Source: Mesotoga infera (GTDB lineage Bacteria; Thermotogota; Thermotogae; Petrotogales; Kosmotogaceae). From it: a stretch of 64,000 nt of DNA. A model generated the notes under the pieces. That model was given only the letters and a program-made list of their open reading frames with translations, was not told the origin of the DNA and did not search any database. Position 1 is the stretch's first letter. Every line of letters begins with the position of its first letter. The position numbers were made by a program, and so were the translations under genes. Shown here one piece after another: positions 20,756 to 37,231 of this stretch. The stretch lies in the NCBI RefSeq assembly GCF_900157305.1, contig NZ_LS974202.1, positions 1,240,001-1,304,000 of the forward strand, read 5' to 3'.

Positions 20756-20923
20756 TGTTCTCCATCTGCGCGATGGATGAATTTTTCTGACGGAATTTAA
20801 GGATTAAGCAATCTATAAGAAAGTTAATCGATACTTCAACACAACGTATTATTAGCACAAATAAATTAGAATTGTTTTAGTTTATAACCCCCCTATCCCC
20901 CTTAGATAGGAACCCCATATAGT

Positions 20924-20949
20924 CCGGATCATCCGATCCGGCTTTTTTT
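20924..20949 (+). terminator. Rho-independent terminator
   Basis: CCGGATC and GATCCGG form a 7-bp stem with a 4-nt loop followed by a run of seven T. It lies 170 bp after the nuclease stop. A weaker hairpin (TCCATC/GATGGA, 20760-20776) followed by T-rich sequence is nearer the stop. Confidence 0.75.
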
Positions 20950-21004
20950 ATTTGTTTTGATCTATAATTATATGTAATCCTAACCAAATATCGGAGGTGC
21001 GCCC

Positions 21005-22030
21005 TTGAAATGGATTGACTTGAGAAGTGACACCGTGACGCTTCCGGGAGAAGAGATGCGCGCGGCCATGGCGAACGCCGAAGTCGGAGACGACGTTTAC
21101 GGCGACGATCCCACCGTAAACCGTCTGGAAGAGATCGCCGCCCGACGCCTCGGAAAGGAAGCGGCCATCTTCGTTCCCTCGGGAACTTTCGGAAATCAAC
21201 TCTCTATACTGACACATACTCTCAGAGGAGACGAGGTCATAATACCGGCCTCGAACCACATAATCGTTCATGAGGCCGGCGCTTCGGCCGTCATAGCCGG
21301 CGTCCAGATGAGAACGCTGGACTGCGACGACGGAATGCCCTCTGTCGATAGAATACTCAAAGCGATAAGGGGAGAGGACCTCCACTATCCCAGAACGGGA
21401 TTGATCTGTCTGGAAAACGCGCATTCTAGTGGAAGGGTTCTCCCGATGGAATACATGAAAGAGGTGTATTCGATTGCCCGGGAGCGCGCGATTCCGGTTC
21501 ATCTCGACGGAGCCAGAATATTCAACGCGGCCGTCTCTCTTGGAATAGATGCCAGAGAGATCGCCTCGAAAGCCGACAGCGTCATGTTCTGCCTCTCCAA
21601 AGGGCTTGGGGCGCCGATCGGCTCCATGCTGGTCGGAACGAAAGACTTCATCGCCAGAGCCCGGAAAGGGCGAAAAATCATGGGCGGAGCGATGCGACAG
21701 GCCGGGATCATAGCCGCGGCCGGGATCATAGCCATAGAGAAGATGATCGACCGGCTCGGCGAAGACCACGAAAATGCCCGGTATCTCGCGAAAAAACTCG
21801 GAGAAATCGAGGGCGTCGAAATCATGAGAGACAGACTGGACATAAACATGGTCTTCTTCAAACTCGACTCGGGCAGACCGAAGGCCATAGTCGAAGAGCT
21901 CCACAGGCAGGGAATAAAGATAAACCCGCCCGAGGGCGATGAATGGAGGCTGGTGACCAACCTCGACGTTTCACGCTCCGATCTCGAGACGTTCATCGAT
22001 CGTTTCGCGAAGGCCATTAGATACCGCTGA
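21005..22030 (+). CDS. ltaE: Low-specificity L-threonine aldolase
   Basis: The 341-residue PLP enzyme opens with IDLRSDTVTLPGEEMRAAM and EVGDDVYGDDPTVNRLEE, the classic threonine aldolase start, and carries FVPSGTFGNQLSI, HLDGARIFNAAVSLG and the PLP lysine loop FCLSKGLGAPIGSML near residue 200. It cleaves threonine or allo-threonine to glycine and acetaldehyde. It starts at TTG after CGGAGGTGCGCC. It is monocistronic and runs into a repeat array. Confidence 0.93.
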   Translation: MKWIDLRSDTVTLPGEEMRAAMANAEVGDDVYGDDPTVNRLEEIAARRLGKEAAIFVPSGTFGNQLSILTHTLRGDEVIIPASNHIIVHEAGASAVIAGVQMRTLDCDDGMPSVDRILKAIRGEDLHYPRTGLICLENAHSSGRVLPMEYMKEVYSIARERAIPVHLDGARIFNAAVSLGIDAREIASKADSVMFCLSKGLGAPIGSMLVGTKDFIARARKGRKIMGGAMRQAGIIAAAGIIAIEKMIDRLGEDHENARYLAKKLGEIEGVEIMRDRLDINMVFFKLDSGRPKAIVEELHRQGIKINPPEGDEWRLVTNLDVSRSDLETFIDRFAKAIRYR

Positions 22031-22257
22031 TCAGAAGAGCGGCCCTTGGAAGAGCGGGAAGAACCGTCCGGCGTCATCCAGGAGTATGGACACGTCCTTG
22101 GAGAACAGAAGAGCGGTTCCGGCGCGTTGCGCCCAAGTTCCTCGTTCCGACGCTGCGCGTCCAGGTTCTTGGTAAAAGACTCGAGAGGAAGAGAGAGAGG
22201 AGAGAAAACCCGTCCTTTCCTCCCTTCCCGTCATGCCGGACCCCGATCCGGCATCCC
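22031..22257. repeat. REP-like modules, 5' flank of group II intron
   Basis: The segment contains the GTTCCGGCGCGTTGCGCC/CGACGCTGCGCGTCCAGG block, which is also found at about 10315-10380 and 27835-27895 in the opposite orientation. It ends in the hairpin ATGCCGGACCCCGATCCGGC. The group II intron begins 3 nt after the 8-bp stem of this hairpin. Confidence 0.8.
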
Positions 22258-23051
22258 GTGCGCCCGGCATGGTACACAACTATAGGGTGAAAGACCCGAA
22301 TGTGGGGAGTCAAAGAAGCATTAGCCAGAGGCAAGGGTGTCACTGGTAACGGTGAATCTGAAGGAAGCCCGAGGCAAAGTCCGGAACTGAACGAAAGTGA
22401 ACCAGAGATGGCCGTTACAGAGGGTAACCCTGCGAGATAAGGGAAAGCCCTGACTCCAGCTGTAAAGGTTCGGATGGCAGGATTCGGATGAAAGTGGTGT
22501 ATCTTACCCGGGGAAGTCCTCATGAGTCCGAAAGGGGTAACCGTTAGCAAGGAGGAGATCCAAGTTAAGGGAAAGCTCAGGAGGATGGCAGATGAACCCG
22601 TAGTAGTGAAGAACCTCTCCGAAAGGAGAAGGGACCTTGGCTATAAGCCAAGGGGGTGATGAGGAGGTCGAAAGGCTCCATCACTTGCGAAGGGGAAGGC
22701 AACAGAAACTGACAGTCCACAATTCCTCCCGATGCTTTTTCACATTTTCTACCGGCGTTTTTCTTATTTTACTGTTGATGTTGACAAGCACAAAGAAACT
22801 GAACAGAGTCCTCAGAAGGGCTGGATGGGAAGAGAAAGTCAATCTGAGAATGAACAAATGGCGCTCTTCTCACACAAAAGCAGTCAATTACGCCATTCCC
22901 AACAGGTTCTTTGAAGAGATGAACTTATTCGATATGACATCGTACTATCATCCCCTGTCGAAGTATCCGATACTCGATCCTGAGCCGTGTACGAGGCCCG
23001 TACGCACGGTTCTGTGAAAGGACGAGGGGCTCCGCCCCTCTCCTACTCGAT
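22258..23051 (+). mobile_element. Group II intron, ORF-deleted derivative
   Basis: The element starts GTGCGCCCGGCATGGT and ends in a domain V hairpin (GAGCCGTGTACGAGG and CGTACGCACGGTTC at about 22981-23012), then a domain VI hairpin and ...CTACTCGAT. These ends are nearly identical to those of the full-length intron at 34748-36682. Only about 470 bp of the 5' part and 265 bp of the 3' part remain. Most of the reverse transcriptase gene is replaced by about 85 bp of unrelated sequence (around 22702-22788), leaving the last 70 or so codons of the maturase. Splicing could still be possible with the protein supplied by the other copy. Confidence 0.88.
22786..23017 (+). pseudogene. C-terminal fragment of group II intron maturase
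   Basis: The frame encodes STKKLNRVLRRAGWEEKV and on to YYHPLSKYPILDP, identical in these stretches to the end of the intact maturase at 34816-36141. The reverse transcriptase and most of the maturase domain are missing. A 2-nt change at the old stop lets the frame run to 23017 through domain V. Confidence 0.85.
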
Positions 23052-23175
23052 CGCTCCTTTGAAAAAGCCCTCTCGTATAGTTTTTGATAACGATTAAGTG
23101 AATCTGTATAGAAGTTTCAGTCTCTCATCTCTTTGTAAATAACTAAGTGACCTTGTAGGCCTTGAATTCCTCCTT

Positions 23176-26100
23176 TCATTTCTGAGGCTCGTAAGCCAGG
23201 TTAACTCCTCTCTCGAGAAGTAATGTGATGTTTGTCATGTCTGTTCCGTCGGGTGTGAGATCCAGGAAGTTGAATGAGATATCCACATAGTCTCCTGAAT
23301 CTATGCCAGTGTTATTCACTAGAGGTAGTATGTCCTGAATATCATTATTGCTTACACTCATCCACTGCAGGTTTTGAAGAGTTGCAAGAGGCGAGATATC
23401 GGCAATTTGATTACTTGAGCATTCGAGATGAGTGATTTGATTGAGAGATGCTAGTGGGCTCAAATCAGTTATCTGGTTTCCACCCATGAAGAGTGCGCTC
23501 AGGTTTGTCAGATACTGCAAAGGCTCAATGTTGGTGATCTGATTGCTGTAACCCCATATGCCTGTCAGGTAGCTGAGGTTCTGTAATGGACTCAAGTCGG
23601 CTACCAGATTATTCGAGAAGTCTAGACTATTAAGGTAAACCATACTTGCGAGTGTGGTTAGGTCGGTGATGTTGTTCTGATTCAGCCATATAGTTTGAAT
23701 TTTCGTGTTCTCTCCAAGGAATAGTATATCGCTATTTTCTAGACCGAGCCCCACTAATGCAAGACTGTTGAGGTTTGGGATTTGGTTCACTACCGAGAGA
23801 TTCGCGATGGGATTTCTTCCGGTGCTGAGGCCCTGCAGGTTTGGCAGCTGGGTGAGTATTGAGATGTCAGAGATGTTGTTTGTCTCTATGTTCAGGTACT
23901 CAAGTTTTGTGAGACTTGCGAGCGGAGAGATATCCGATATGTCGTTCTCGTTTATGTATAGAAATCTCAGATTGCTCAGATGTTCTATACCGGACAAATT
24001 CGAAATATTCCTCTGTTCGGCATGAAGCCCTTCAATTCCCAGCACTTCATTTGCGTAGATGGTTTCTCCTGGATCCTTTCCAATGTATTCGCAGACTACT
24101 TGCTTCAAGGCTTGATCTGGGAAGAAGACTTCCTCTCCGGATGTGAGAGTTGTGAAACTCCACACAGGACTCTCTGCAACGCCATCTCTTCCGTCTTTAG
24201 CCACGATTTTCCAGTAATACTTGCTTTCAGTCTTTAGCTGAACGTATTCTGAGATGCTTAGGGCATCGTAGTTATAATTCTCATGAATAAAGGCAAGAGA
24301 GTCGATATCGTTCGGATCACTCAAATACACTTCAAAAGAAAGAATATCTCCATCGTAATCAAAGCATCTCCAGCGAAGCGTTGAATTAAGCGAGATACCT
24401 GTGGCACCGTCAGTAGGGTCAGGATCGAATGGTGTAAGCGGAGGATAGTTTCCTGGATATTCAGGGTAAAAAGACCATATAGGACTTTCGAATGCATAGG
24501 TAATAGTTTCTCCGGGATGCAAAGGGTCTTCCATCGAGGGAAAGACCCTCCAATAGTAAACCGGATGTAGATTCAGAATGTGTTCCTGAGGAACTGCGAC
24601 AGACGTAGCGTTCGTCGTAGTCTCAAAGACGATGAAACTGTCAAAATCATCCCTTGAGGTGCTGATTTGTACTGTGTAAATCAGCGTCTCTCCATCTGTG
24701 AAGGTCTCCCAGCTCAAAGTCGGAGTGAGCGAAACACCAGTACATCCGTCGCAAGGGAAAGGATCTCTCGGTTCACCGATAATGTCTGCTCTGAATATGA
24801 AATTGTATGTGTTGTTTGCCCTATCTTCCTGACTGCATTGGTAGTGATTGTATCTGCCAGAATCGTTCACATATAGCCAAGAATCATATTGTGTCAAGGG
24901 TATTGTTGCACCAACACTTGAATCATAACCAAAATCCTCAGGTGTCACCACACCTTGAATGCCAGTGTTTTCGGATCCATCGGGTTCTTTTCCGTGCATG
25001 AAGAAATAGAGCCGTCTGCTGGTCATGGCTGCTTCATACGGAGTCGCAAGCACGTAGCTCCCATCTCCCTGCATTCTGTACCATCTCCACGAGATTGACT
25101 TTAACTGTCCGTTAGGGTAAGCAGATGATTTTGACACTGCAAATATGAAACCTTCAAGGTAATCGTCTGGAGTCAGGAAGTCAAGATTGTCGAAATAGTA
25201 GACACTTTCATAATCATTTCCTAGTTCTAGGACGTAATCCCCGTTGAAGGGAGGAATCATCTCTCCCACTTCTTCCAACTGGAACCAGACTTCTCCCCAA
25301 CCTGTCTCCCAGTGGAAAGGCTCCCAGTGGAAGCCCTCTTCACGTTCTCCACCAGGTACTTCTATCTGCCCCAACCCGTTTGGAAGCGTTAATCGTCCAG
25401 GAACTGAGGTCTCAACCATGGTTGGTAAACAAGAAGCATTCCTTAATCCAATCGCGTATCTAATCACAAAACGAGTAAACTCGTCAATTGGAATCTTAAT
25501 TGGGTCTTCTATGTCATCGAAATCAATGTCCCCAGGATCGAACCATTTTGAATCCGTGACAATTGCAAACGTCCAATTCGTTTCAGGGTCTTCTTCCCTG
25601 TCATACAACCCGTTCTTGTTAATATCCGGGTTCAGGAATTTCTTAAGCGTTATGTCAAACATGCCGAAAGCCGCTAAGGTCTCGTATGAATGCCCAAGGA
25701 GATTGCACAGGTCCTGCCCAGTGATGAGCTCAGAAGTGAAAAGATCTCCATTTTGAATAAGATGACCCAGGTCTATTATGTCGTTTGCTGCATATGAAAC
25801 CGGAAGAGTGTGAAGGCCAAGTTCGGCATCACCAATGAGTCCAAGAACATTAATCACTCCTCCTGATCTTTCAGTCACCCCAAAGACATACGTTCCGCCT
25901 TTGTCAAGCTGGACAGTATTAACGCCTTCGCTCAGAACTAAGCGACCGTAACAATCCTCCAAATCGATGTTTGTGTATACAAGAGAAAGCTCTGAATCTT
26001 CCTGCAAAGCAAAACCTGCTTGTGAAGGCTGGCCGATTGAGAACTTCAGAAGAAAACTCCCTTCTGGGACCACGATTTCAGATGTCGTGAAGCTCCATAA

Positions 26101-26859
26101 GGGCCCTTCTGTAGACGCTCCAAAACTATCCTTGGCTACTACTTTCCAGTAATATGTACTGGTATTCTGAAGGTCCGTTTCTAGCTCGAAATTATTCGTT
26201 TTGTGGTCCGCTGTCAGTTTGATGAAAACAGAGCTATCATTTGGTTCACTCAAATACACGTCATACGAGAGTTCTCCACCATCAGGGTCCTGGCAGTTCC
26301 AGTAGAGCGTAGGTCGTAGAGGTGTGTCGGTGGCACCATCGTAAGGAATAGGACTATCCGGTATCAGCGGTGGATTATTGATGAAATAGCCTGTTACTCG
26401 TATAACCGGATTGAGCATGAAAAAAGGATTTCTTCCGCCTCGCTTCATTAGCTTTATATCGAACTCATAGAAGACGTTTGTTAAGTCCTCCATCTGGAAC
26501 GGATCGATCATCACGTTGATGTTGTTTCCTGAGACAGTGCAGGGATATTCAACATAGTCGATACTACATGTAGCGTCACCCGTAATAAGCTTTACTTTAT
26601 AGAGGGTATCTCCGACTGATGCCCATATCTGCTTTAGGAAGTTATTCAGGCCATCAGTGAGTTCGATTGTTGATATTTCAAAATTGTCCAGAACTACCAT
26701 ACCTTTATTTGTTATGGCAGATACTTCAAGAACATCTACATATAAGAGTATATTGGAGTCGCTTGAAACTTGAAACTCACTTTCGGGAAGGTCACGTTTG
26801 AAGCATCCTGAAATTAATACCAATAATACCAACAGCATACACAGAAACAGTCTTCTCAT
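23176..26859 (-). CDS. Giant leucine-rich-repeat lipoprotein with FN3-like domains
   Basis: The 1227-residue protein has a lipoprotein signal (LLVLLVLISGC, lipid-bearing Cys near residue 19). Three fibronectin/Ig-like modules follow at roughly 160-265, 700-805 and 810-905, each opening with a proline-rich turn and an LxW core (PDSPIPYDGATDTPLRPTL; FDPDPTDGATGISLNSTL) and closing with SPxWSFTT. From about 910 to 1210 runs an internalin-like leucine-rich repeat array of about 22-residue units (YINENDISDISPLASLTKLE, MGGNQITDLSPLASLNQ). It is anchored outside the cell and likely binds protein or polysaccharide ligands. The middle part is unrecognised. The composition is AT-richer than the neighbours upstream, and it is transcribed alone. 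Confidence 0.85.
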   Translation of the reverse strand: MRRLFLCMLLVLLVLISGCFKRDLPESEFQVSSDSNILLYVDVLEVSAITNKGMVVLDNFEISTIELTDGLNNFLKQIWASVGDTLYKVKLITGDATCSIDYVEYPCTVSGNNINVMIDPFQMEDLTNVFYEFDIKLMKRGGRNPFFMLNPVIRVTGYFINNPPLIPDSPIPYDGATDTPLRPTLYWNCQDPDGGELSYDVYLSEPNDSSVFIKLTADHKTNNFELETDLQNTSTYYWKVVAKDSFGASTEGPLWSFTTSEIVVPEGSFLLKFSIGQPSQAGFALQEDSELSLVYTNIDLEDCYGRLVLSEGVNTVQLDKGGTYVFGVTERSGGVINVLGLIGDAELGLHTLPVSYAANDIIDLGHLIQNGDLFTSELITGQDLCNLLGHSYETLAAFGMFDITLKKFLNPDINKNGLYDREEDPETNWTFAIVTDSKWFDPGDIDFDDIEDPIKIPIDEFTRFVIRYAIGLRNASCLPTMVETSVPGRLTLPNGLGQIEVPGGEREEGFHWEPFHWETGWGEVWFQLEEVGEMIPPFNGDYVLELGNDYESVYYFDNLDFLTPDDYLEGFIFAVSKSSAYPNGQLKSISWRWYRMQGDGSYVLATPYEAAMTSRRLYFFMHGKEPDGSENTGIQGVVTPEDFGYDSSVGATIPLTQYDSWLYVNDSGRYNHYQCSQEDRANNTYNFIFRADIIGEPRDPFPCDGCTGVSLTPTLSWETFTDGETLIYTVQISTSRDDFDSFIVFETTTNATSVAVPQEHILNLHPVYYWRVFPSMEDPLHPGETITYAFESPIWSFYPEYPGNYPPLTPFDPDPTDGATGISLNSTLRWRCFDYDGDILSFEVYLSDPNDIDSLAFIHENYNYDALSISEYVQLKTESKYYWKIVAKDGRDGVAESPVWSFTTLTSGEEVFFPDQALKQVVCEYIGKDPGETIYANEVLGIEGLHAEQRNISNLSGIEHLSNLRFLYINENDISDISPLASLTKLEYLNIETNNISDISILTQLPNLQGLSTGRNPIANLSVVNQIPNLNSLALVGLGLENSDILFLGENTKIQTIWLNQNNITDLTTLASMVYLNSLDFSNNLVADLSPLQNLSYLTGIWGYSNQITNIEPLQYLTNLSALFMGGNQITDLSPLASLNQITHLECSSNQIADISPLATLQNLQWMSVSNNDIQDILPLVNNTGIDSGDYVDISFNFLDLTPDGTDMTNITLLLERGVNLAYEPQK

Positions 26860-27229
26860 ACCCTGGTCCCTCCTCTTTCTAAGGAAAGAAAATGAGATGT
26901 ATTACTAACCACAGTGTCTCTAGATATTTATCTGTATCAAACATGCAATATTTTGTATGTTTAGTGATACTCCAAGGTAATAACTGCAATAAGTATACTC
27001 CCAAATAATGGAGAAATATTCCAATCGATTGCACTATCACCACTAATCGTTATGTAAATCTTTCCGTCGAAACACAGGAATACTGAAATCCAGATCGATG
27101 ATTTTCTGCCCTTTCGAAATCTGGCTTCTCATATCATAGTCGGCAAATCTGAAAGAGTGGAAATTGCTTGAAGCTAGACTCAATTTATGAACCTTGATTT
27201 AACAAAAGAACTGTCTCCATGAACAGCAT
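26860..27229. other. AT-rich upstream region of LRR lipoprotein
   Basis: About 370 bp with no credible gene. It precedes the leftward LRR lipoprotein and must hold its promoter. The GAGGGACC/GGAGGAGGGACC-like site next to 26860 provides the ribosome site on the minus strand. No clear operator was recognised. Confidence 0.4.
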
Positions 27230-28090
27230 CAGAAACCGCCCTTGGAAAGAGCGGGAAGAGGGGTTCCTCGTTCCGACGCTTCGTGCACGGGTTCAAGACA
27301 GATGAAAGCCCAGGATGCCGGATCAGGTCCGGCATGACGGGAGGGGAGTAAAGGCCGCGAAAATGGGGACTGACGATTCTCCTGACGTCTGTCCCCGTTT
27401 TTCGCGGCATGACAGGAAGGAGGAAGAACGTGATCTGGCTAGGAACATGCCAGAATGACATGAGGGGAGAGCCTGCCCTGAAACGCTCCCCCTCGTGTCA
27501 TCCCGTAATGTTCCTATACGGGATCTCGCTCTTTAGTGACCCCATCCCGTCATCCCGGGCTCCGACCCGGGATCCACTCCTTAGAAAACCGTGATTCTGA
27601 GTCAAGCTCAGAATGACGGGAAGGGAGTAAGACTGTTATCCCGTGGTGTGCCCGTGGAGCCTGCCCTGAAATGATCCTATTCAGGGTTCCTATTCAGGGT
27701 CATCCCGTAATGATCCTATACGGGATCTCGCTCTTTTGCTCTTTCGAAGGAGCGGAGATGCCGGATCGGGTCCGGCATGACGTGAGGGAGGAAAGGACGG
27801 GTTTTCTCTCCTCTCTCTTCCTCTCGAGTCTTTTACCAAGAACCTGGACGCGCAGCGTCGGAACGAGGAACTTGGGCGCAACGCGCCGGAACCGCTCTTC
27901 CCAAGGACGGGTCCACGCTCCTGGACGAAGGACCAATGACGGCTCTTTTCGTTCTCTCCTCTCTCTCTTCCTCTCTCCTCTTCCCGAGTCTTTAACAGAG
28001 AACTTGGAGTGCGGAGAGTGGAGAGAAAGAGCGTCGAGAGTTCGTTTCGCTCAAGAGAAGGCGAGAGCGAAAGTGAGGACTGACGGGATC
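27230..28090. repeat. REP-like hairpin array
   Basis: About 860 bp of mosaic modules: GCCGGATCAGGTCCGGC, the GGGGACTGAC/GTCTGTCCCC block, TCATCCCGTAATG...TACGGGAT, CCCGGGCTCCGACCCGGG with the CTGAG hairpin, and the CGCAGCGTCGGAACGAGG/GGGCGCAACGCGCCGG block. The order differs from the other arrays, which suggests shuffling or repeated insertion. Peptides predicted from it are artefacts. Confidence 0.85.
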
Positions 28091-28244
28091 CTGATGTCCC
28101 ATTTTCATAGGCTCGAAATAGAATCGAACATCCCCTAAGATTGAGTATAAGCTAGATTTCTTAACGTAAACACCTCTCTTTGCACTTATTCGGGAATGAC
28201 AAACGTCTGTCAGGTTTACCCGTTAGCTACTAAGAATGTATAAT

Positions 28245-28269
28245 GTTAACGTTAACTGTTAACGTTAAC
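28245..28269. promoter_or_regulatory. Tandem palindromic operators for LacI regulator
   Basis: Two perfect 12-bp palindromes, GTTAACGTTAAC at 28245-28256 and 28258-28269, are separated by one T. They lie 24 bp before the start of the lacI gene and are of the LacI/GalR type with a central CG. The 13-bp spacing puts them about 1.2 helical turns apart. Confidence 0.75.
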
Positions 28270-28292
28270 AGATATTTCTGGAGGTTTTTTAA

Positions 28293-29264
28293 TTGAAAAG
28301 GGCCACGCTGCGTGAAGTTGCTTTGAAAGCCGGTACATCAATGATGACAGTCTCAAGGGTAATTAACGACAAAGAACCAGTCAGTCCCGAGACGAAAGCT
28401 AGGGTTCTAAAAGCGATAGAAGAGCTTCAGTATGAGCCTCATCAGGATGCTCGAAGTCTTCGTGGTGGCAAGACCGGTAGAATCGGTTTGATTGTCTCAG
28501 ATATTAGAAATCCCTTCTATGCGCAAGTTGTCGGAGACATGGAGGATTTGGCAGAGTTAAATCGAATGGCAATAGTGGTAACAGATACAAGTCGCAAGCT
28601 TGCTCAAGAAAAGAAGGCAATAAAGTCATTGATGGACATTAGAGTTGATTCAATAGTTATTGCTCCAGAGGGGTACGAATCACAACATCTTCTTGAAGTC
28701 ATAGATTCCGGAGTTGGACTTATTTCATTTGGAGTTCACTTTGACGATCCGAGAATCCCGGAGGTTTCGATTGATGAAGAGCAGGGTGCTTCTCAAGCAG
28801 GCAGATACCTTAGAGAGTGCGGAATAAAAAGTGTGCTGATATACATGGGTAATCCGCGAAAGCTAACCACACGCGGAAGGATAGACGGATTTATAAAGGG
28901 TTTTGGTCATGTTCCCGAAGATAGAATTACCTGCATGGAAGTTGACTGGAAGATTTCATGCGAAGCAGTTAGATCATTGAAGGAACTTCCGGAGGCCTTT
29001 TTTTGTTATAACGATATGATGGCTATGGGCGTTATCAAAGCTCTTATGGAAAGGAATATCGAAATCGGCAAAGATGTAAAGGTCATCGGGTATGACGATG
29101 TCTATATGGCGGAGATTGCAGGTCTTTCCACAATTAGAATTCCAATCAGACGGATGGTCGAAGATGCCTTCAAAATGATATTGAGTGGTAAATGGGAAAA
29201 AATCAAGTATGTTCCGGAGTTGATAATGCGCAAAAGCGCTCAAATAGGAGGTGACGGCAAGTGA
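28293..29264 (+). CDS. LacI-family transcriptional regulator
   Basis: The 323-residue protein has an N-terminal helix-turn-helix (TLREVALKAGTSMMTVSRVI) with the LacI hinge, then a ligand-binding domain (RIGLIVSDIRNPFYAQVVGD; FCYNDMMAMGVIKALMER; VKVIGYDDVYMAE). It starts at TTG 9 bp after TGGAGG. The stop overlaps the next gene by 4 bp (GTGA). It is the likely repressor of the ABC importer and GH42 enzyme downstream, through the twin palindromes just upstream. Confidence 0.93.
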   Translation: MKRATLREVALKAGTSMMTVSRVINDKEPVSPETKARVLKAIEELQYEPHQDARSLRGGKTGRIGLIVSDIRNPFYAQVVGDMEDLAELNRMAIVVTDTSRKLAQEKKAIKSLMDIRVDSIVIAPEGYESQHLLEVIDSGVGLISFGVHFDDPRIPEVSIDEEQGASQAGRYLRECGIKSVLIYMGNPRKLTTRGRIDGFIKGFGHVPEDRITCMEVDWKISCEAVRSLKELPEAFFCYNDMMAMGVIKALMERNIEIGKDVKVIGYDDVYMAEIAGLSTIRIPIRRMVEDAFKMILSGKWEKIKYVPELIMRKSAQIGGDGK

Positions 29265-30478
29265 AAAGGGTTTTTATGGTAATACTGCTTGTTTCTATGG
29301 CGTTGGTTGCTATGGGAGCACAGAAACTCGTGATTAACTCTTATATGTCCGATCCAGAACCGAAGAGAGTATTTGCTGAGCTGGTAGATCAGTTCAAAGA
29401 GCTCTATCCCGATTACGAAGTGACGGTGAACACTTTCTCACACGAAGACTTCAAGGTGCTTCTAAGGACGTGGTTAACGGCTTCGAATCCTCCCGATGTA
29501 GTAACATGGTTCGCAGGCGAGAGGATGCGCTATTTCGCAAGCAGGGATCTACTGGAACCAATAGGAGATATTTTTGAAAACGGTTTTGAAGCAGATTTTC
29601 CAAAGGCTTTTGTTAGTGCTTCCAGCTATGGCGACAAGATATACTTTGTACCACAGTCATGGTACTGGTGGGGTGTTTACTATCGAAAGTCAATATTCGA
29701 GAAGCTGGGAATAAGTGTACCTGTTACCTGGAAGCAGTTCCTTGACGTTTGCGAGACTCTTAAATCAAACGGAATTATCCCGATAACCATCGGAACGAAG
29801 TACCTCTGGACAGCGGCCGGTGTATTCGACTATCTGAATATGAGAGTCAACGGAATAGAATATGCTCTAAAGCTTACAAACGGAGAGATACCCTATAACG
29901 ATGAGGGAATGAAGAATGTATTCGCTTATTGGAGACAGCTAGTAGACAAGAAGTATTTTCTTGACAACGCTACGTCATATACATGGCAGGAAGCAGCAAA
30001 CTTCCTATTTACGGGAGAAGCGGCCATGTATCTTATGGGCCAGTTTATCAAGGATGTGGCACCCGAGAGCGTAAAGGAAGACCTGGACTTCTTCAGATTC
30101 CCCGTTATCGACGGTAATATTGGCCTTTACGAAGATACACCTATCGATGGCTTTATGATGCCGGCGAACGCAAAGAACAAAGAGGCAGGCAAGACCTTCC
30201 TGAAGTTCATAGCCTCCACCGAGGCTCAAGCATATTTCGCGTCTGAACTTGGAAGGCTCGCTGCAAACAAGCATGTTCCGGCTCCGGATGCTCACGCCCA
30301 GAAGGGTCTGGATATGATACTCGCTTCAGACGGAGTTATGCAGTTCTACGATCGAGACACCGATCCCGAGATGGCAAATGCCGGAATGAACGGCTTTGTT
30401 GAGTTCATGACCTTCCCGAACAGAATCGAGACCATCCTGAAAAACCTGGAAGCCGAGCGAAACAGGATCTATAAGTAA
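29261..30478 (+). CDS. Sugar ABC transporter substrate-binding protein
   Basis: The 405-residue family 1 solute-binding protein has a signal peptide (MKRVFMVILLVSMALVAMGA) and typical elements: LVINSYMSDPEPKRVFAELV, PDVVTWFAGERMRYFASRD and AAMYLMGQFIKDV. The GTG start overlaps the lacI stop. The ligand is probably a galactoside or galactose-containing oligosaccharide, given the downstream GH42 enzyme. A strong hairpin follows the gene and may raise its transcript level over that of the permeases. Confidence 0.92.
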   Translation: MKRVFMVILLVSMALVAMGAQKLVINSYMSDPEPKRVFAELVDQFKELYPDYEVTVNTFSHEDFKVLLRTWLTASNPPDVVTWFAGERMRYFASRDLLEPIGDIFENGFEADFPKAFVSASSYGDKIYFVPQSWYWWGVYYRKSIFEKLGISVPVTWKQFLDVCETLKSNGIIPITIGTKYLWTAAGVFDYLNMRVNGIEYALKLTNGEIPYNDEGMKNVFAYWRQLVDKKYFLDNATSYTWQEAANFLFTGEAAMYLMGQFIKDVAPESVKEDLDFFRFPVIDGNIGLYEDTPIDGFMMPANAKNKEAGKTFLKFIASTEAQAYFASELGRLAANKHVPAPDAHAQKGLDMILASDGVMQFYDRDTDPEMANAGMNGFVEFMTFPNRIETILKNLEAERNRIYK

Positions 30479-30490
30479 TTTTCTCTAGTG

Positions 30491-30524
30491 TAGGGTGGGC
30501 GTTTTCTCGCCCACCCTATATTTT
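30491..30524 (+). terminator. Intercistronic hairpin after binding-protein gene
   Basis: TAGGGTGGGCG and CGCCCACCCTA form an 11-bp perfect stem with a 6-nt loop, followed by TATTTTG. It lies between the binding protein and the first permease. As in maltose-type operons it probably acts as a partial terminator or 3' stabiliser that lets the binding protein be made in excess. Confidence 0.8.
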
Positions 30525-30536
30525 GTGGAGGTTGAG

Positions 30537-31409
30537 ATGAAAGGTAAGAAGTGGGTTCCCTGGGCCTTTCTTGCGTTACCGTTGGCAATGTATTCTATAT
30601 GGGTCATCTACCCAGTAGGTAGAACGCTCTTTTTAAGTTTCACCAATTGGGATGGAGTTTCCAGAACAATGAGGTTTGTTGGGCTGGAAAATTTCAAAGA
30701 GCTCTTCAACGATCCTTATTTCATCACTTCGTTAATAAACAACTTCAAATGGCTAATAGGATTTGCTCTCATATGTGTTCCAGCCGGCCTGGGAGTTGCT
30801 TTGCTTCTAGATCAGAAGTTTAAGGGAAACAAAGTTTACAAGACTCTAGTTTATCTTCCGATGACTCTCTCTTTTGTTGTTATAGGACAGATATGGTCAT
30901 GGATATTTGAGCCGCGCAGCGGAGCTCTAAACAGTTTTCTGGCCCTTTTTGGAATTAAAGGAATTAGCTGGCTTAGTGATCCATCTATCGTTACTTACTC
31001 CCTTATCATGGCTGCCTCCTGGAGGCAAATTTCCTATGCGATGGTTCTTTATCTTGCCGGATTAAAGGGTGTTCCGCATGAACTAGTGGAAGCAGCCACA
31101 GTAGACGGCGCGGGTTCATGGAGGCGTTTCTGGAACGTAGTTCTTCCAATGCTAAGACCCGCAACCGTGGTTGCCGTAACCGTGAGTATTATCGACTCTC
31201 TCAGGGCTTTCGATATCGTGTATGTTCTTACAAGGGGAGGACCGTTCTATTCTTCATCCGTGATGGCAAATTATATGTATATAAAGGCCTTCAATAACTA
31301 TCGAATGGGCTACGGTTCTTCAATAGCTACTATTCAATTTCTTATAACTCTTGGATTCATAATCTTCTATATGAGAAATGTTCTTAAGAGGGAGGCGGAG
31401 CGAGAATGA
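30537..31409 (+). CDS. Sugar ABC transporter permease (MalF-type)
   Basis: The 290-residue membrane protein starts MKGKKWVPWAFLALPLAMYS. The ATG at 30537 follows GTGGAGGTTGAG; the frame upstream to 30495 falls inside the hairpin and is not used. It carries the EAA loop EAATVDGAGSWRRFWNVVL near residue 195. Its stop overlaps the next permease start by 4 bp. Confidence 0.92.
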   Translation: MKGKKWVPWAFLALPLAMYSIWVIYPVGRTLFLSFTNWDGVSRTMRFVGLENFKELFNDPYFITSLINNFKWLIGFALICVPAGLGVALLLDQKFKGNKVYKTLVYLPMTLSFVVIGQIWSWIFEPRSGALNSFLALFGIKGISWLSDPSIVTYSLIMAASWRQISYAMVLYLAGLKGVPHELVEAATVDGAGSWRRFWNVVLPMLRPATVVAVTVSIIDSLRAFDIVYVLTRGGPFYSSSVMANYMYIKAFNNYRMGYGSSIATIQFLITLGFIIFYMRNVLKREAERE

Positions 31410-32224
31410 AGAAGACACTGTTCTATCTTTTTGCTACAATTCTCGTTCTCATCTGGCTTATGCCTTTCGTAATTTCCGCTTTCACTTCCCTGAAGAGCAT
31501 GGATGAGCTGATGCTCGAAAAAAAGTGGTGGTTTCCTCCTAAAGAGATTAGACTGGAGAATTACTCAACAGCCTGGGACGATGCAAACATGGGTAGATAC
31601 TTTATTAATACCTTTATCATTACTGTCCCTTCGGTTCTCGGCGCGCTCTTCCTTTCGAGCTTGGGAGCCTTTGCTCTGGCATGGTACGATTTCAGGTTCT
31701 CGAAAGTGGTGTTGATGGTATTTGTTGGAGGAATGCTGATTCCCTTTCAGATGTTGCTTATTCCGGTATATAGACTATCTATTTCGATGGGCATTTATGA
31801 TAGATATCTTGGTGTGATACTATTCCACATGGCATTTCAACTGGGTTTTTGCACTTTTTTCTTGCGCAACTTCATGAAGACAATACCTGCAAGTATTTTT
31901 GATGCTGCAATGATAGACGGTGCTAACCACTTCATGATCTATCGCAGAATCGTCCTTCCGCTTGTGATTCCTGCTATGGCTGCGCTCGGAATCCTCGAGT
32001 TCACGTGGATATGGAACGATTATCTATGGTCTCTTATTCTCATTCAGAGCGACAAGTTCAAACCGGTCACCCTAGGTCTGGTTAATCTTCAAGGACAGTG
32101 GATAAGCAGCTGGAATGTAATGGCAGCGGGGTCTATAATTGCAGCGGTAGTGCCTCTAGTGGTCTTTCTGCTATTCCAGAGGTATTTTATAGAAGGACTT
32201 ACAGTTGGGAGTGTTAAAGGTTGA
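31406..32224 (+). CDS. Sugar ABC transporter permease (MalG-type)
   Basis: The 272-residue partner permease has a first membrane helix (LFYLFATILVLIWLMPFVI) and the EAA loop DAAMIDGANHFMIYRRIVL near residue 170. Both ends overlap neighbouring genes by 4 bp (ATGA upstream, TTGA downstream), so the operon is tightly coupled. No ATPase gene is present in the operon. Confidence 0.92.
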   Translation: MKKTLFYLFATILVLIWLMPFVISAFTSLKSMDELMLEKKWWFPPKEIRLENYSTAWDDANMGRYFINTFIITVPSVLGALFLSSLGAFALAWYDFRFSKVVLMVFVGGMLIPFQMLLIPVYRLSISMGIYDRYLGVILFHMAFQLGFCTFFLRNFMKTIPASIFDAAMIDGANHFMIYRRIVLPLVIPAMAALGILEFTWIWNDYLWSLILIQSDKFKPVTLGLVNLQGQWISSWNVMAAGSIIAAVVPLVVFLLFQRYFIEGLTVGSVKG

Positions 32225-34092
32225 ATTGGTTTGGAGCGGCATATTACCCAGAACATTGGCCTCGAGAGAGGTGGAAAGAAGATGCCAGGATGATGGCTTA
32301 TCTTGGCATAAATGTTGTACGAATTGGCGAATTCTCGTGGAGTGTAGTAGAGAAAAGTCCGGGAGATATTGATTTCTCTCTTCTAGATGAAGCCATTGAG
32401 GTTATCTACTCAGAAGGAATAAGAGTGATCATGGGAACTCCTACATGCACTCCCCCCCCGTGGCTGGTCAAACGTTATCCCGAAATACTTCAGGTTGATA
32501 GAGACGGACTTACCATCAATGCTGGAAGCAGGAGACACTATTGTTTCAACTCTCAAGTCTACCGGGAAGAGACGATCAGAATTGTGAAAGCCTATGTAGA
32601 ACACTATGGAAGAGATCCCAGGGTGATCGCCTGGCAGGCAGATAATGAATATGGTTGCCATAACTCGACAGTCTGTTATTGTGAAAACTGTGCGATAGCT
32701 TTTAGAGAATGGTTAAAAAAAAGGTATGGCACTCTGGATAGACTTAATCAACGTTGGGGAACTGTATTCTGGAGCCAGGTATATCGGGATTGGGATGAGA
32801 TCGATCCCCCAAGAAGAAGTCTGTCTTCTCCTAATCCCTCTCTCATGCTTGATTACAGGCGCTTCTCGTCTGATTCGGTGCTAGAGTATCATATCTTGCA
32901 GAGAGATATAATAAAGAAAGGATCTCGAGCGCCATTAACGCATAATTTCATGGTTAATTTCACCGAAATAGACTACAAAAAGATGGCCGAGAAGGTGGAT
33001 TTCGTTTCTTGGGATAATTACGTAATGACAGATTACGATCCCGATCTTCAGGCATTGAATCACGACCTCATGAGATCGTTGAAAAAGTCGTCCTTTCTTG
33101 TAATGGAGCAGCAGCCTGGAAGGGTCAACTGGAGAGTTGTGAACGAGGCCTATCCTCCAGAGCAGATGGCTTTCTGGATTAAGCAATCAATGGCTCATGG
33201 GGCTTTTGGCTCTCTTGTTTTTAGATTCAGGCAACTACCGTTTGGTGCAGAGCAGTTCCATAGCGGTCTACTCAATTATGATGGCTCAACAACCGAAAGG
33301 GCAAAAGCTTTTGCAGAGACAGTTAAGGAACTGAGAAACTGGAAAATCGATAGACTAAAGAAAGAGGCCGCGATTTACATTGATTATGAGAATTTCTGGA
33401 TAGGTGAGACCGATAATCTCAATGGAAACTTCAATCTCTTACAGGACGGTATTCTTCCACTTTATAAGACTATCAGAAGCTTCGGATACAATGTCGATTT
33501 CCTCTTTCCCGGAGATTCGCCATCCGGTTACTCCTTTGTATGTATTCCATCGGCTTTTAAACTTGATCCAGAATTTCTCGAAGCTCTTCAGGAGTTCGAA
33601 GGAAAGATATTTATCACAGCAATGACCTCACAGAAAGACGAAAATAATAACGTCCGTCTTCAGGATAACGACAGTTTTAAAAGATTAACGGGAATTAGAA
33701 TCATTGATGCAGCGGGTATTAAAAACCCGGTTAGGATTTCCTTTGGGAAAGACGAATACATCGGAGGCTTTGTAATCGAAGCTCTCGAGTTGACTGATGG
33801 TTGCGAAGAAATGGCCGTTTATCTAGAAGGTCCCTTCAAGGGAAAACCGGCTATTGTAAAGAAAGGTAGATGCTATTACTTAAGTACAGTAGGAGACATA
33901 GAACTCTTCAAAGAGCTATTTGAGCTAGCGGGAATCAAGAGAATGGCCAATGGATCTGCCAGAGTCTTAAGAACTGAATCTAATATGGTTCTACTAAATC
34001 CTTTTCCGTACAACATCAGAATTCTGATCGATGGAGTAGTTCATAACCTTAGAGAATACGAAGTAAAAGTGGTTCTTCCTCAGCGTATATGA
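32221..34092 (+). CDS. GH42 beta-galactosidase, cytoplasmic
   Basis: The 623-residue enzyme of glycoside hydrolase family 42 has the TIM-barrel start WFGAAYYPEHWPRERWKEDA, the acid/base Glu143 in QADNEYG, and the nucleophile in FLVMEQQPG near residue 297. Cys108, Cys152, Cys154 and Cys157 match the zinc site known for Thermus A4 beta-galactosidase. A trimerisation domain and a C-terminal beta domain follow. There is no signal peptide, so imported galactosides are cut inside the cell. It starts at TTG overlapping the permease stop. Confidence 0.93.
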   Translation: MNWFGAAYYPEHWPRERWKEDARMMAYLGINVVRIGEFSWSVVEKSPGDIDFSLLDEAIEVIYSEGIRVIMGTPTCTPPPWLVKRYPEILQVDRDGLTINAGSRRHYCFNSQVYREETIRIVKAYVEHYGRDPRVIAWQADNEYGCHNSTVCYCENCAIAFREWLKKRYGTLDRLNQRWGTVFWSQVYRDWDEIDPPRRSLSSPNPSLMLDYRRFSSDSVLEYHILQRDIIKKGSRAPLTHNFMVNFTEIDYKKMAEKVDFVSWDNYVMTDYDPDLQALNHDLMRSLKKSSFLVMEQQPGRVNWRVVNEAYPPEQMAFWIKQSMAHGAFGSLVFRFRQLPFGAEQFHSGLLNYDGSTTERAKAFAETVKELRNWKIDRLKKEAAIYIDYENFWIGETDNLNGNFNLLQDGILPLYKTIRSFGYNVDFLFPGDSPSGYSFVCIPSAFKLDPEFLEALQEFEGKIFITAMTSQKDENNNVRLQDNDSFKRLTGIRIIDAAGIKNPVRISFGKDEYIGGFVIEALELTDGCEEMAVYLEGPFKGKPAIVKKGRCYYLSTVGDIELFKELFELAGIKRMANGSARVLRTESNMVLLNPFPYNIRILIDGVVHNLREYEVKVVLPQRI

Positions 34093-34099
34093 AAGAACA

Positions 34100-34426
34100 G
34101 AGATGAGGAAAAACTGCAATCACTATCTCAGAGGGACTCTTCATATGGCTAGTCTTGCTGCAACAAATAGCTCTAAATGGATGAAAAGATACTACGACAA
34201 TAAAAAGAGCGAGGGCAAGAGCTCTGCTAATGCCCTCCGTGCATTGGCGAACACCATCCTCAAAATCGCCTTCGCCATGCTTAGGGATTTGACTCCCTAC
34301 TCAGAAGAGAAATTCCTCAAGAGGAATCCTCCTTCTGATTATACTCCTTCTAGAAAGGAGAGAAAACAGAAACCTAAGCGCTCGCTGAAAGTATCTTCAG
34401 TAGCTACCTGCCGATCTACTGCTTGA
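34100..34426 (+). pseudogene. IS110-family transposase, C-terminal fragment
   Basis: The 107-residue frame matches the end of the Transposase_20 domain of IS110 enzymes: NHYLRGTLHMASLAATNSS (usual form GNxxLRxALxxAA), YYDNKKSEGKSSANALRALA and LKIAFAMLRDLTPYSEE. The DEDD N-terminal half is absent, and the fragment begins only about 8 bp after the GH42 stop. It is a decayed copy that cannot transpose. Confidence 0.8.
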
Positions 34427-34489
34427 TCCTTTCTGTCTGCCTTTTTTATTTCTGTTGACATAGTAGAAGCCATTCGTCCAGAAGCGTGG

Positions 34490-34747
34490 ACCCGTCCTTG
34501 GAGAAAGTGAAAGAGCGGTTCCTCGTTCCGACGCTTCGTGCACGGGTTCAAGACAGAGGAAAGACCAGGATGCCGGATCATGTCCGGCATGACGGGAAGG
34601 GGAGTAAAGGCCGCGAAAATGGGGACTGACGGGATCCCGACGTCTGTCCCCGTTTTTCGCGAAGAACGGGATCCTGACTTGGAGCACGTCAGGATGACGT
34701 GAGGGCGCTATCATCCCGTACCCCGATCCGGGACTCCTTAGAAAACC
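34490..34747. repeat. REP-like modules, left flank of group II intron
   Basis: The segment contains GCCGGATCATGTCCGGC, the GGGGACTGAC...GTCTGTCCCC block and the GATCCTGAC/GTCAGGATGAC block, and ends CCTTAGAAAACC. This is the spacer that normally precedes GTGATTCTGAG; the intron interrupts the module at this point, and the module resumes at 36683. Confidence 0.85.
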
Positions 34748-36682
34748 ATCGAGTAGGAGAGGGGCGGAGCCCCTCGTCCTCTCACAGAACCGTGCGTACG
34801 GGCCTCGTACACGGCTCATGGATCGAGTATCGGATACTTCGACAGGGGATGATAGTACGATGTCATATCGAATAAGTTCATCTCTTCAAAGAACCTGTTG
34901 GGAATGGCGTAATTGACTGCTTTTGTGTGAGAAGAGCGCCATTTGTTCATTCTCAAATTGACTTTCTCTTCCCATCCAGCCCTTCTAAGGACTCTGTTCA
35001 GTTTCTTTGTGCTCTTCCACTGGTGTAGTATGATGGCTCTAAGCCTTCTCCTTATCCAGCTCAAAAGCCCTCTCAAGGTAGATTGTAAGTCTACTATCCT
35101 GAAATAGCTGGCAAATCCTCTCAACAGTGGATTTAGCTCTTTCACTATTTCCTTTACCGGTGTGCTCTGGTTCCTTCTTGTAAGTCCCTTGACCTTTCCC
35201 TTGAACCTTTTCAATCTGGATTTCTCTATCCCAACTCTCTCGCCTTTTATTTCGAAGCCAAGAAAGTGAAAGCCCTCCTCCAGTGTTGTGATTCTCGTCT
35301 TGTTTCTGTTGACCTTGAGCTTCATGTCAATCTCCAGTATGTTGATCGCGATTGCCAGAAACTCTCGGGCTTCTTCCTGGGTTTTCGAGAAGATTAATAT
35401 GTCGTCTGCATATCTGACTATCCTTATTCCTCTGGCTTTCATCTTCTGGTCGAACTCGTCCAGGTAGATGTTCGCCAGCAGGGGACTTATTACACTACCC
35501 TGTGGACTGCCAGTTTCTGTTGCCTTCCAGACTCCATCTTCCATTACTCCGCTCTTCAGCATTGCGCGTATGAGTTTGAGTATCTTTCCATCACTCACTC
35601 TCTCTGCTACGGAGTCTATTATCTTCTCATGATCCAGAGTGTCGAAACATTTGCTCAGGTCAAGTTCCACTACATTGCACAGACCGTATTTGGATGCAAA
35701 AGCTTTCGCCTTCTCCACCGCCTGCCAGGCATTTCTTCCCTTTCTGTAACCGTAACTGGAGGGATGGAATCTTTCCTCGAATATAGGTTCCAGTATCTCC
35801 TTGAGAGATTGTTGTACCACCCTGTCTCTCACAGCAGGTATTCCCAATTGCCTTGTTTTACCATCTGCTTTTGGGATTTCTACTCTCCTGAGTGGCATGG
35901 GCATGTACTCACCGCTCTTGATTTCTTCGGATAATCTCTCGATTTCTTCGAGGAGTTTCTCCCCGAATGATTTTACGGTTACTCCGTCTATCCCAGGAGC
36001 TCCTCTGTTGGAGTTTACCCTGTGATAGGCTTTCAATAGGTTCTTCTTCGAATAGACTTTGTCGATTAGACTGTAATACTTCATCTCTTTCTCCTGCATG
36101 CTCCCTTCCAACAGCTCCAGCCTCAGATATTGTTGCGACAATTAATGACTGGCTTCTCTACCCTCCCGGGAATATGTACCTTGTCTTTAACTGTCTGACC
36201 TAAGTCTCTTCACTGTCTTCCGATCACATTTCTTCGATCCTTCTCCCCTTCGCAAGTGATGGAGCCTTTCGACCTCATCATCACCCCCTTGGCTTATAGC
36301 CAAGGTCCCTTCTCCTTTCGGAGAGGTTCTTCACTACTACGGGTTCATCTGCCATCCTCCTGAGCTTTCCCTTAACTTGGATCTCCTCCTTGCTAACGGT
36401 TACCCCTTTCGGACTCATGAGGACTTCCCCGGGTAAGATACACCACTTTCATCCGAATCCTGCCATCCGAACCTTTACAGCTGGAGTCAGGGCTTTCCCT
36501 TATCTCGCAGGGTTACCCTCTGTAACGGCCATCTCTGGTTCACTTTCGTTCAGTTCCGGACTTTGCCTCGGGCTTCCTTCAGATTCACCGTTACCAGTGA
36601 CACCCTTGCCTCTGGCTAATGCTTCTTTGACTCCCCACATTCGGGTCTTTCACCCTATAGTTGTGTACCATGCCGGGCGCAC
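34748..36682 (-). mobile_element. Full-length group II intron with reverse transcriptase
   Basis: On the minus strand the element runs from GTGCGCCCGGCATGGT (36682) to CTACTCGAT (34748), 1935 bp. The ends can be placed exactly because it splits a known repeat module: GACTCAGAATCAC | intron | GGTTTTCTAAGG, while intact copies elsewhere read straight through. Domain V (GAGCCGTGTACGAGG / CGTACGCACGGTTC) lies just downstream of the ORF, followed by a GC-rich domain VI (GAGGGGCTCCGCCCCTC). The encoded protein lacks an endonuclease domain, and the insertion lies 3 nt after the 8-bp stem ATTCTGAG/CTCAGAAT. Both features resemble group IIC introns. Confidence 0.92.
34816..36141 (-). CDS. ltrA: Group II intron reverse transcriptase/maturase
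   Basis: The protein of up to 441 residues has the RT-0/RT-1 start (LLKAYHRVNSNRGAPGIDGV), RT motifs QLGIPAVRDRVVQ, ELDLSKCFDTLDH, TGSPQGSVISPLLANIYL (near 210) and the catalytic YADD at 244-247. A maturase X domain follows (LLRGFASYFRIVDLQSTL). It ends YYHPLSKYPILDP without an HNH endonuclease domain. Translation may begin at the internal ATG of MKYYSLIDKVY (after AGGAGAAAGAG) rather than at the TTG at 36141. It assists splicing and reverse-splices the intron into DNA. It probably can also serve the ORF-less copy at 22258. Confidence 0.93.
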   Translation of the reverse strand: MSQQYLRLELLEGSMQEKEMKYYSLIDKVYSKKNLLKAYHRVNSNRGAPGIDGVTVKSFGEKLLEEIERLSEEIKSGEYMPMPLRRVEIPKADGKTRQLGIPAVRDRVVQQSLKEILEPIFEERFHPSSYGYRKGRNAWQAVEKAKAFASKYGLCNVVELDLSKCFDTLDHEKIIDSVAERVSDGKILKLIRAMLKSGVMEDGVWKATETGSPQGSVISPLLANIYLDEFDQKMKARGIRIVRYADDILIFSKTQEEAREFLAIAINILEIDMKLKVNRNKTRITTLEEGFHFLGFEIKGERVGIEKSRLKRFKGKVKGLTRRNQSTPVKEIVKELNPLLRGFASYFRIVDLQSTLRGLLSWIRRRLRAIILHQWKSTKKLNRVLRRAGWEEKVNLRMNKWRSSHTKAVNYAIPNRFFEEMNLFDMTSYYHPLSKYPILDP

Positions 36683-37110
36683 GTGATTCTGAGTCAAGCT
36701 CAGAATGACGGGGAGGGAGTAAGACTGTTATCCCGTAATACCCCACTAATGTCATCCCGTAATGATCCTATACGGGATCTCGCTCTTCTCGTTCGTCTCT
36801 AAAAAGAGGTAAGAGGGGGAGAGGTCAGAGGTAAGAAAATCAAAATCCCGCTCTTCTCGCCTCACACCTCTACCCTCTCACCTCTGGTTCCGCTCTCTCT
36901 AAGGACCGGAGATGCCGGATCAGGTCCGGCATGACGGGAGGGGTTGTCATCCCGGACCCCGACCAGGGATCCACTCCTTAGAAAACCGTGATTCTGAGTC
37001 AGGCTCAGAATGACGGGAAGGAGGAAAATCGTGATTCTGAGTCAAGCTCAGAATGACGGGAAGAGAGTAAGGCCGTCATCCGGGGTCGGAGCCCGGGATG
37101 ACAGTATAGA
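36683..37110. repeat. REP-like modules, right flank of group II intron
   Basis: The interrupted module resumes here with GTGATTCTGAGTCAAGCTCA. Further copies of TCATCCCGTAATG...TACGGGAT, GCCGGATCAGGTCCGGC and three more CTGAG hairpins follow, with the direct repeat GTGATTCTGAGTCAAGCTCA again at about 37030. The tail to about 37200 is loosely related low-complexity sequence. Confidence 0.8.
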
Positions 37111-37231
37111 AACACAAAGTGATGACGGGATCGGGGCGTTACGCGATGACGGTGCGGCGCGCGGGACAACAGTGCGGGAGATTTCGTGGGTACGTGAAGA
37201 AGTGGCGCGTCCACCTCTCTGGTTCTAGGTT

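Follow-up and report, generated by a model that had tools for sequence, protein, structure and literature searches.

The window analysed here is a stretch of 64,000 nucleotides (nt) from Mesotoga infera (contig NZ_LS974202.1, positions 1,240,001 to 1,304,000). It contains two copies of a group II intron: intron 2 is full-length and encodes a reverse transcriptase (RT)/maturase, and intron 1 has no open reading frame (ORF). Their parts are listed in Table 1. Intron 1 starts at 22258 (+), 3 nt past the hairpin ATGCCGGA(CCCCGA)TCCGGCAT with the spacer CCC, and intron 2 starts at 36682 (-), 3 nt past ATTCTGAG(CTTGA)CTCAGAAT with the spacer CAC. Each hairpin has an 8-bp stem of the repetitive extragenic palindrome (REP) type. 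A preliminary description of this DNA had placed both introns 3 nt behind an 8-bp REP-like stem, which is confirmed at both positions. It had also stated that the full-length copy splits a recurrent repeat module. This is borne out by six intact copies in the window of the module that intron 2 divides between ...CTCAGAATCAC and GGTTTTCTAAGGAG.

Table 1. Features of the two introns and their 5' exons (positions in the window; IBS, intron-binding site; EBS, exon-binding site).
Feature	Position	Strand	Remarks
REP-type hairpin, 5' exon of intron 1	22233..22254	+	ATGCCGGA/TCCGGCAT, 6-nt loop
IBS1 of intron 1, ATCCC	22253..22257	+	final 2 stem nt + 3-nt spacer
Intron 1, group IIC copy without ORF, 794 nt	22258..23051	+	
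EBS1 loop GAGAU, intron 1	22434..22438	+	
73-nt IS21-type remnant in intron 1	22714..22786	+	97% identity to element end
REP-type hairpin, 5' exon of intron 2	36686..36706	-	ATTCTGAG/CTCAGAAT, loop CTTGA
IBS1 of intron 2, ATCAC	36683..36687	-	
Intron 2, full-length group IIC intron, 1935 nt	34748..36682	-	
EBS1 loop GAGAU, intron 2	36502..36506	-	
RT/maturase ORF of intron 2, 427 aa	34816..36099	-	RVT_1 + GIIM
Domains V-VI region, intron 2	34748..34819	-	RF00029, 45.1 bits

Perfect stems of at least 8 bp with a loop of 3-10 nt, counted in both orientations, end at 132 of the 127,940 oriented positions of the window, compared with 10-26 in five first-order Markov copies. Random placement of both introns exactly 3 nt after such a stem end has a chance of about 1e-6. 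The element is very probably a group IIC retro-intron for which dispersed REP palindromes serve as landing sites, with a short loop fitting the REPs of its host.

The genome containing the window (G000, one contig of 2,965,660 bases) holds 19 intron 5' ends and 18 3' ends. By length, the 19 copies comprise 13 full ones (1935-1937 nt), four interrupted ones, the ORF-less intron 1, and one cut to 63 nt. A REP hairpin, belonging to one of two stem families, precedes 16 of the 19. Measured from the 8-bp core, the intron follows at 3 nt in 15 of these REP-borne copies and at 4 nt in one (813525); the stems are perfect in 12 cases and have one mismatch in four. The four ATCAC sites also allow a longer stem, of 11 bp and with one mismatch, that extends to the intron junction; under a longest-stem rule the distances become 3 nt in 11 copies, 0 in four, and 4 in one. 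The REP-borne copies occupy 14 distinct REP sites, one identical REP spacer being common to three of them. It is always the ATC side of the palindrome that bears the intron (16 of 16), and a pattern search found no copy on the opposite side. Two of the 19 copies (815460 and 1437121) are immediately preceded by another copy. Copy 2623586 interrupts an M20 peptidase gene, in frame across a reading frame of 471 aa; this gene is uninterrupted in seven of nine congeners, at 70-87% identity.

In stretches chosen to span the whole-genome REP matches, 169 perfect REPs were counted (89 and 80 by stem family), of which 12 are occupied and 157 are empty. With these 169 among 5.93 million oriented positions, about 0.0005 of 19 random insertions would be expected at such REPs. 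The sister species (G002) contains six copies, whose RTs share 90.2-91.6% identity in five cases, while the sixth is in two pieces (88 and 92%). All six are located at ATCTG, 3 nt past a stem that belongs to another REP, ATCCCGAA/TTCGGGAT, and five distinct flanks occur among them. The earlier proposal that dispersed REPs serve as landing sites is thus upheld by 16 of 19 copies in M. infera and by six of six at the other REP of the sister species.

The letters that follow the hairpin tend to be matched by a loop within the intron. The Rfam alignment places GCGAGAUA in the terminal loop of a domain I hairpin, where the family consensus is GCaaaacA. This loop, GC[GAGA]U, is identified as EBS1, the predicted partner of the site letters behind the hairpin. 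Its GAGAU is the complement of ATCTC; the sites in M. infera are ATCTC or, mostly, ATCNC. At least three of four pairs are possible in 14 of 15 M. infera rows and in five of five rows of the sister species. In the latter the loop reads CAGAU, both in three copies read individually and in five aligned ones. Loop and site letters change together from one species to another, and also from copy to copy in one genome of a second genus of the same family (G028). There, an RT was found in four of five copies examined, with 64-65% identity, and all 11 copies follow hairpins of 5-6 bp at a distance of 6 nt (nine copies) or 7 nt (two). Their loops CUUA, CGAG, and CGUG face sites such as UAAG, CUCG, and CACG, and pairing with the spacers of their own hairpins is complete (4/4) in six of the 11. 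In the second family of the order (f2), a stem was detected at 1-8 nt in 17 of 20 copies, 13 of which have at least six T in the last 12 nt. The f2 loop AUAA faces UUAU in six of the seven copies that have it, the seventh, L143, being a tandem copy. A partial relative from a Bacillota metagenome-assembled genome (L083), obtained in the contig search, gave no Rfam intron match and was not used.

Common to the introns of these genomes are an upstream hairpin and, behind it, an IBS1 of 4-5 nt with a tendency to fit the EBS1 of the same copy. The 3-nt spacing belongs to the REPs of the two Mesotoga species and is no universal rule, because the distance is 6-7 nt in the second genus and 1-8 nt in f2. 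The expectation that a hairpin ends 3 nt before nearly every copy largely holds in the two Mesotoga species (15 of 19 copies in M. infera, six of six in its sister) and does not extend to these relatives. Short-hairpin arrays were observed on contig C1 of G028 (for example L157, L158, L182), with units of about 21 nt, spacers such as GTAAG or TTGTYNCG, and many introns of this genome inside them. In 192 kb sampled from this genome, with overlapping stem ends counted more than once, type 2 hairpins number 34 compared with 2.6 expected, 32 of them in two of ten stretches. Type 1 hairpins number 10 compared with 6.5, a weak excess.

The pairing of loop and site was also recovered by a blind scan. 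In it, four-column windows taken from 50 introns, within the 330 nt at the 5' end, were compared with the last four exon bases, with shuffled partners as control. The highest-scoring window, at intron position 177-180, forms 157 of 200 Watson-Crick pairs, shuffled partners giving 77.0 on average (z 11.9); the next best window reaches z 7.2. In f2 alone, the same window again ranks first (52 of 76 pairs against 32.3, z 4.6). In G028 alone, with 36 of 44 pairs compared with 26.7 after shuffling (z 2.5), it is outranked in z by one window, which reaches z 3.1 with 8 pairs against 7.1. From M. infera, the scan omitted the downstream copy of both tandems and two further occurrences of the composite spacer; also omitted were L080, whose flank is that of L079, the tandem copy L143, L138, and a set of weak matches. 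L128, L129, L130, L131, L144, and L167, which have no intact 5' motif or repeat one already used, were likewise left out. In a hand-read table of 48 rows, without L137 and L168 (both in the blind scan), the pairing observed in G028 was reached by 33 of 20,000 shuffles and that in f2 by none of 20,000.

The element is classed, from its protein and RNA matches, as a group IIC (class C) retro-intron. Among PDB entries, the RT of intron 2 matches GsI-IIC RT best (291.6 bits), followed by 6me0 (162.2) and LtrA (139.7). Its class C assignment denotes the nearest relative by PDB score, not a position in a phylogeny, and in this sense the link to group IIC introns drawn in the preliminary description is supported. 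A Pfam search of the 427-aa protein detected RVT_1 and GIIM and nothing else, and thus no endonuclease domain. The RNA of the full-length copy matches RF02001 (100.5 bits) and RF00029 (45.1 bits); the domain V region of the ORF-less copy scores 38.5 bits, under the cut-off of 40. A stem-loop just upstream in the 5' exon, as in other IIC introns, is present in 16 of 19 copies in M. infera, six of six in the sister species, 11 of 11 in G028, and 17 of 20 in f2. The EBS1-IBS1 pairing is of the short, 3-4 bp type. A U-tailed Rho-independent terminator was not encountered at the REP-borne sites, where the stem has no T-run, and a TTGT end, the mark of the IIC-attC site, occurs at none of the 16. 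A terminator with a U-tail is the usual site of IIC introns and not a condition of the class, because attC serves as well.

Several observations weigh against a landing-site rule of hairpin and matching letters. Copy 2623586, in the M20 peptidase gene, lacks a perfect stem of at least 5 bp within 9 nt, although its IBS1 is perfect; RNAfold predicts an imperfect stem that ends 5 nt before the intron (-11.4 kcal/mol). Copy 813525, at 4 nt, is a poorer match, with two of four pairs and the EBS1 GGGAU. Eight of 15 rows, those with ATCAC or ATCCC, have one mismatch to EBS1, at position -2; the ATCTA site likewise has one. Five of the 11 copies in G028 are not fully matched (3/4 in two, 2/4 in three), and in f2 the pairing is 1/4 in four copies and 2/4 in three. 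Other windows of the blind scan reach z 5-7, and shared ancestry inflates the all-species figure. At -1, all 12 occupied perfect REPs have C, as do 127 of the 157 empty ones. Likewise, ATCTG is found in six of six occupied but in 24 of 43 empty REPs of the sister species, the latter counted with a pattern that misses sites with A at the last position; neither difference is a clear sign of selection. A preference among REPs by the letters past the stem was considered and is only weak. Since occupied and empty REPs differ little after the stem, the site would be set by the REP sequence of the host more than by a choice among REPs. The preliminary description took copies without an upstream hairpin, or at a variable distance from it, to speak against its proposal; one copy without a perfect adjacent stem (2623586) and other distances (813525 and the relatives) do occur, and the use of REPs as landing sites is still supported.

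Insertion is envisaged to proceed as in known IIC introns. The intron-RT particle would recognise the extruded hairpin instead of an IBS2, read IBS1 by pairing with EBS1, and then reverse-splice, after which the RT would copy the inserted intron without an endonuclease. The lineage may have left T-tailed terminators, where EBS1 AUAA reads UUAU, for REPs, with EBS1 changing to GAGAU or CAGAU. It appears to have moved, in what we infer to be this direction, from terminators to dispersed palindromes through an altered reading sequence of 4-5 nt.

It is unlikely that the REPs are themselves transcription terminators, so that ordinary IIC insertion takes place at them and their repeat nature is incidental. 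IIC introns are described as inserting after terminators in two reports (PMC8919778; PMC4424553), the first of which lends this alternative a precedent. ACGGTTTTCT follows ATC at 37 of the 157 empty perfect REPs, and TTTT begins 5 nt past the stem at 37 of the 157. A terminator scan of window positions 20000-38000 gave 22 calls compared with 17.5 in shuffles and called one REP copy, at 34590 (-), terminator-like; neither of the two intron-bearing REPs was called. Directly past the stem, the letters are C, any base, C, or else CTG, with no T-run, and EBS1 reads GAGAU or CAGAU here, in contrast to AUAA in the relatives at TTTAT sites.

Compared with IIC introns at intrinsic terminators, the REP-borne introns share an RT near GsI-IIC, the matches to RF02001 and RF00029, the 5'-exon hairpin, and a short IBS1-EBS1 pairing. 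They differ in using REP palindromes, whose stem has no T-run, and in an EBS1 that fits the trailing letters of the REP and varies by host. Retrohoming into a terminator-like DNA stem-loop has been assayed for another IIC intron (PMC7161350). The IIC-attC introns of integrons are similar in that a non-terminator hairpin takes the place of IBS2; PMC7923331 describes attC as an alternative IIC site with an IBS1-EBS1 pairing of 3-4 bp. Their site is TTGT/T, whereas that of the present introns is (A)TCNC or ATCTG. A group II intron of Pseudomonas putida KT2440 also has REPs as insertion sites, in two of nine cases in a table of PMC1525189. There, REPs account for a minority, in contrast to 16 of 19 and six of six copies here with a matching change of EBS1. 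Divergence of EBS as a route to new sites is likewise reported for the F1-F6 introns of Thermosynechococcus elongatus (PMC2882425). Those introns have IIB-type EBS1/2/3 and insert into introns, whereas a hairpin with one short EBS1 and insertion ahead of introns are found here. An EBS1 matched to REPs appears in none of the titles and abstract openings listed, a set that largely leaves subscription papers on IIC introns out of scope and is weak evidence of absence.

These comparisons suggest that a retroelement can change its niche by one or a few letters, with hairpin recognition kept and EBS1 swapped. Such a swap would make insertion sites of all members of a many-copy repeat family. A natural experiment on target choice in IIC introns is offered by sister species whose REPs differ and whose EBS1 letters match them, and hairpin can there be tested against sequence. 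The pairs of loop and hairpin may also serve as a starting list for programmable IIC insertion.

An occupied site would remain a target, because nearly all recognition lies upstream, and a new copy could enter ahead of the old one, which fits the tandems without spacer. In both such tandems of M. infera, the damaged copy is the downstream one: an IS21-type element has inserted into 815460, and 1437121 breaks off after 63 nt, short of the EBS1 position. The bases before the downstream copy are CTACTCGAT, the end of the upstream copy, and form none of four pairs with either the GGGA loop of 815460 or GAGA. In genome G034, two copies start 1885 nt apart; the upstream site UUAU fits at 4/4, and the downstream copy is preceded by a similar intron-end sequence with a fit of 2/4. 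Entry of a new copy into the intact 5' exon ahead of an old one would be the simplest reading of these three cases.

A second arrangement is the composite of two introns around a 196-nt REP spacer, which is found at 742517-735174, 942025-946092, and 2859090-2855025 (L065, L067, L074). The spacer is identical in all three composites and the outer flanks are different. Over their alignable parts, the introns differ in single-nucleotide polymorphisms (SNPs), with no mark common to all three. The joined outer flanks of each composite match native REP modules across the junction, and so does the left flank joined to the spacer; therefore, recombination and joint movement are indistinguishable here, and either is a possible origin. 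It is doubtful, albeit worth stating, that two introns bracketing a REP module move together in a mutual expansion of retro-intron and palindromic repeat. The pair would be excised as one RNA from the first 5' splice site to the second 3' splice site and reverse-spliced into another REP, whereby the intron would copy REPs and the REPs would supply sites.

It is very unlikely that the intron spread chiefly within REP modules in which it was already present, by their homologous recombination or duplication. The identical intron-196 nt-intron unit at three loci, identical flanks in two of the six copies of the sister species, and SNP patterns that suggest exchange between copies would all fit such a process. 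It does not account for 14 distinct REP sites with two stem families and differing flanks, for the copy in a peptidase gene whose orthologues are uninterrupted in seven of nine congeners, or for the covariation of EBS1 and IBS1, which is not expected under recombination.

The preliminary description further inferred that expansion of the repeats creates targets without harming genes. Expansion may have done so in M. infera, which has the most GCCGGA REPs among the congeners compared, but the other intron-bearing congener, the sister species, has none of these. Harmlessness is borne out in part: of 12 REP sites examined, seven have no ORF of more than 100 aa across the empty site, and ORFs of 104-268 aa, not assessed as genes, span the other five. 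Survivorship after wide insertion, with only intergenic REP-borne copies persisting, is hardly credible even given those seven sites and the M20 gene as the one clear gene insertion, as selection for intergenic positions would not lead to a constant distance of 3 nt, to insertion on a single side of the palindrome, or to site letters that complement EBS1.

Loss of the ORF from intron 1 probably goes back to a 2.05-kb IS21-type element. This element interrupts four intron copies (742517, 738328, 815460, and 1238372), with differing junctions; one of its ORFs is rve integrase-like and another matches IstB_IS21 (278.7 bits). Some of the insertions come with a deletion of intron sequence. The 73 nt of the element's end retained in intron 1 therefore indicate that its ORF was probably lost by such an insertion and a subsequent deletion.

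A separate group II domain V match of 48 bits was observed at G000:C1 720313-720388 (-) (L076); no RF02001 match and no RT relative were found in the 6.5 kb around it. Among the REPs, the family with the GCCGGA stem accounts for 89 copies in M. infera compared with 0-11 in nine congeners. None occurs in the intron-bearing sister species, where the other REP is used. CGTC or TGTC precedes 160 of the 169 perfect REPs, giving a multicopy short palindrome with a conserved flank. A candidate mobiliser is a Y1 transposase of 245 aa, similar to REP-associated tyrosine transposases (RAYTs), at G000:C1 702,859-703,596 (L175:1462-2199), near REP clusters; it matches NF047646 (REP-associated transposase) with 69.6 bits, under the cut-off of 80. 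The REPs are clustered, with 144 of 162 listed ones in G000:C1 612,000-1,558,000, about a third of the chromosome, and long stretches elsewhere are nearly devoid of them. In G002:C1 1,761,000-1,927,000, REPs and introns recur at an offset of about 86.5 kb (for example 1763407/1849939, 1773765/1860297), which suggests either that a large segment is duplicated or that the assembly is at fault.

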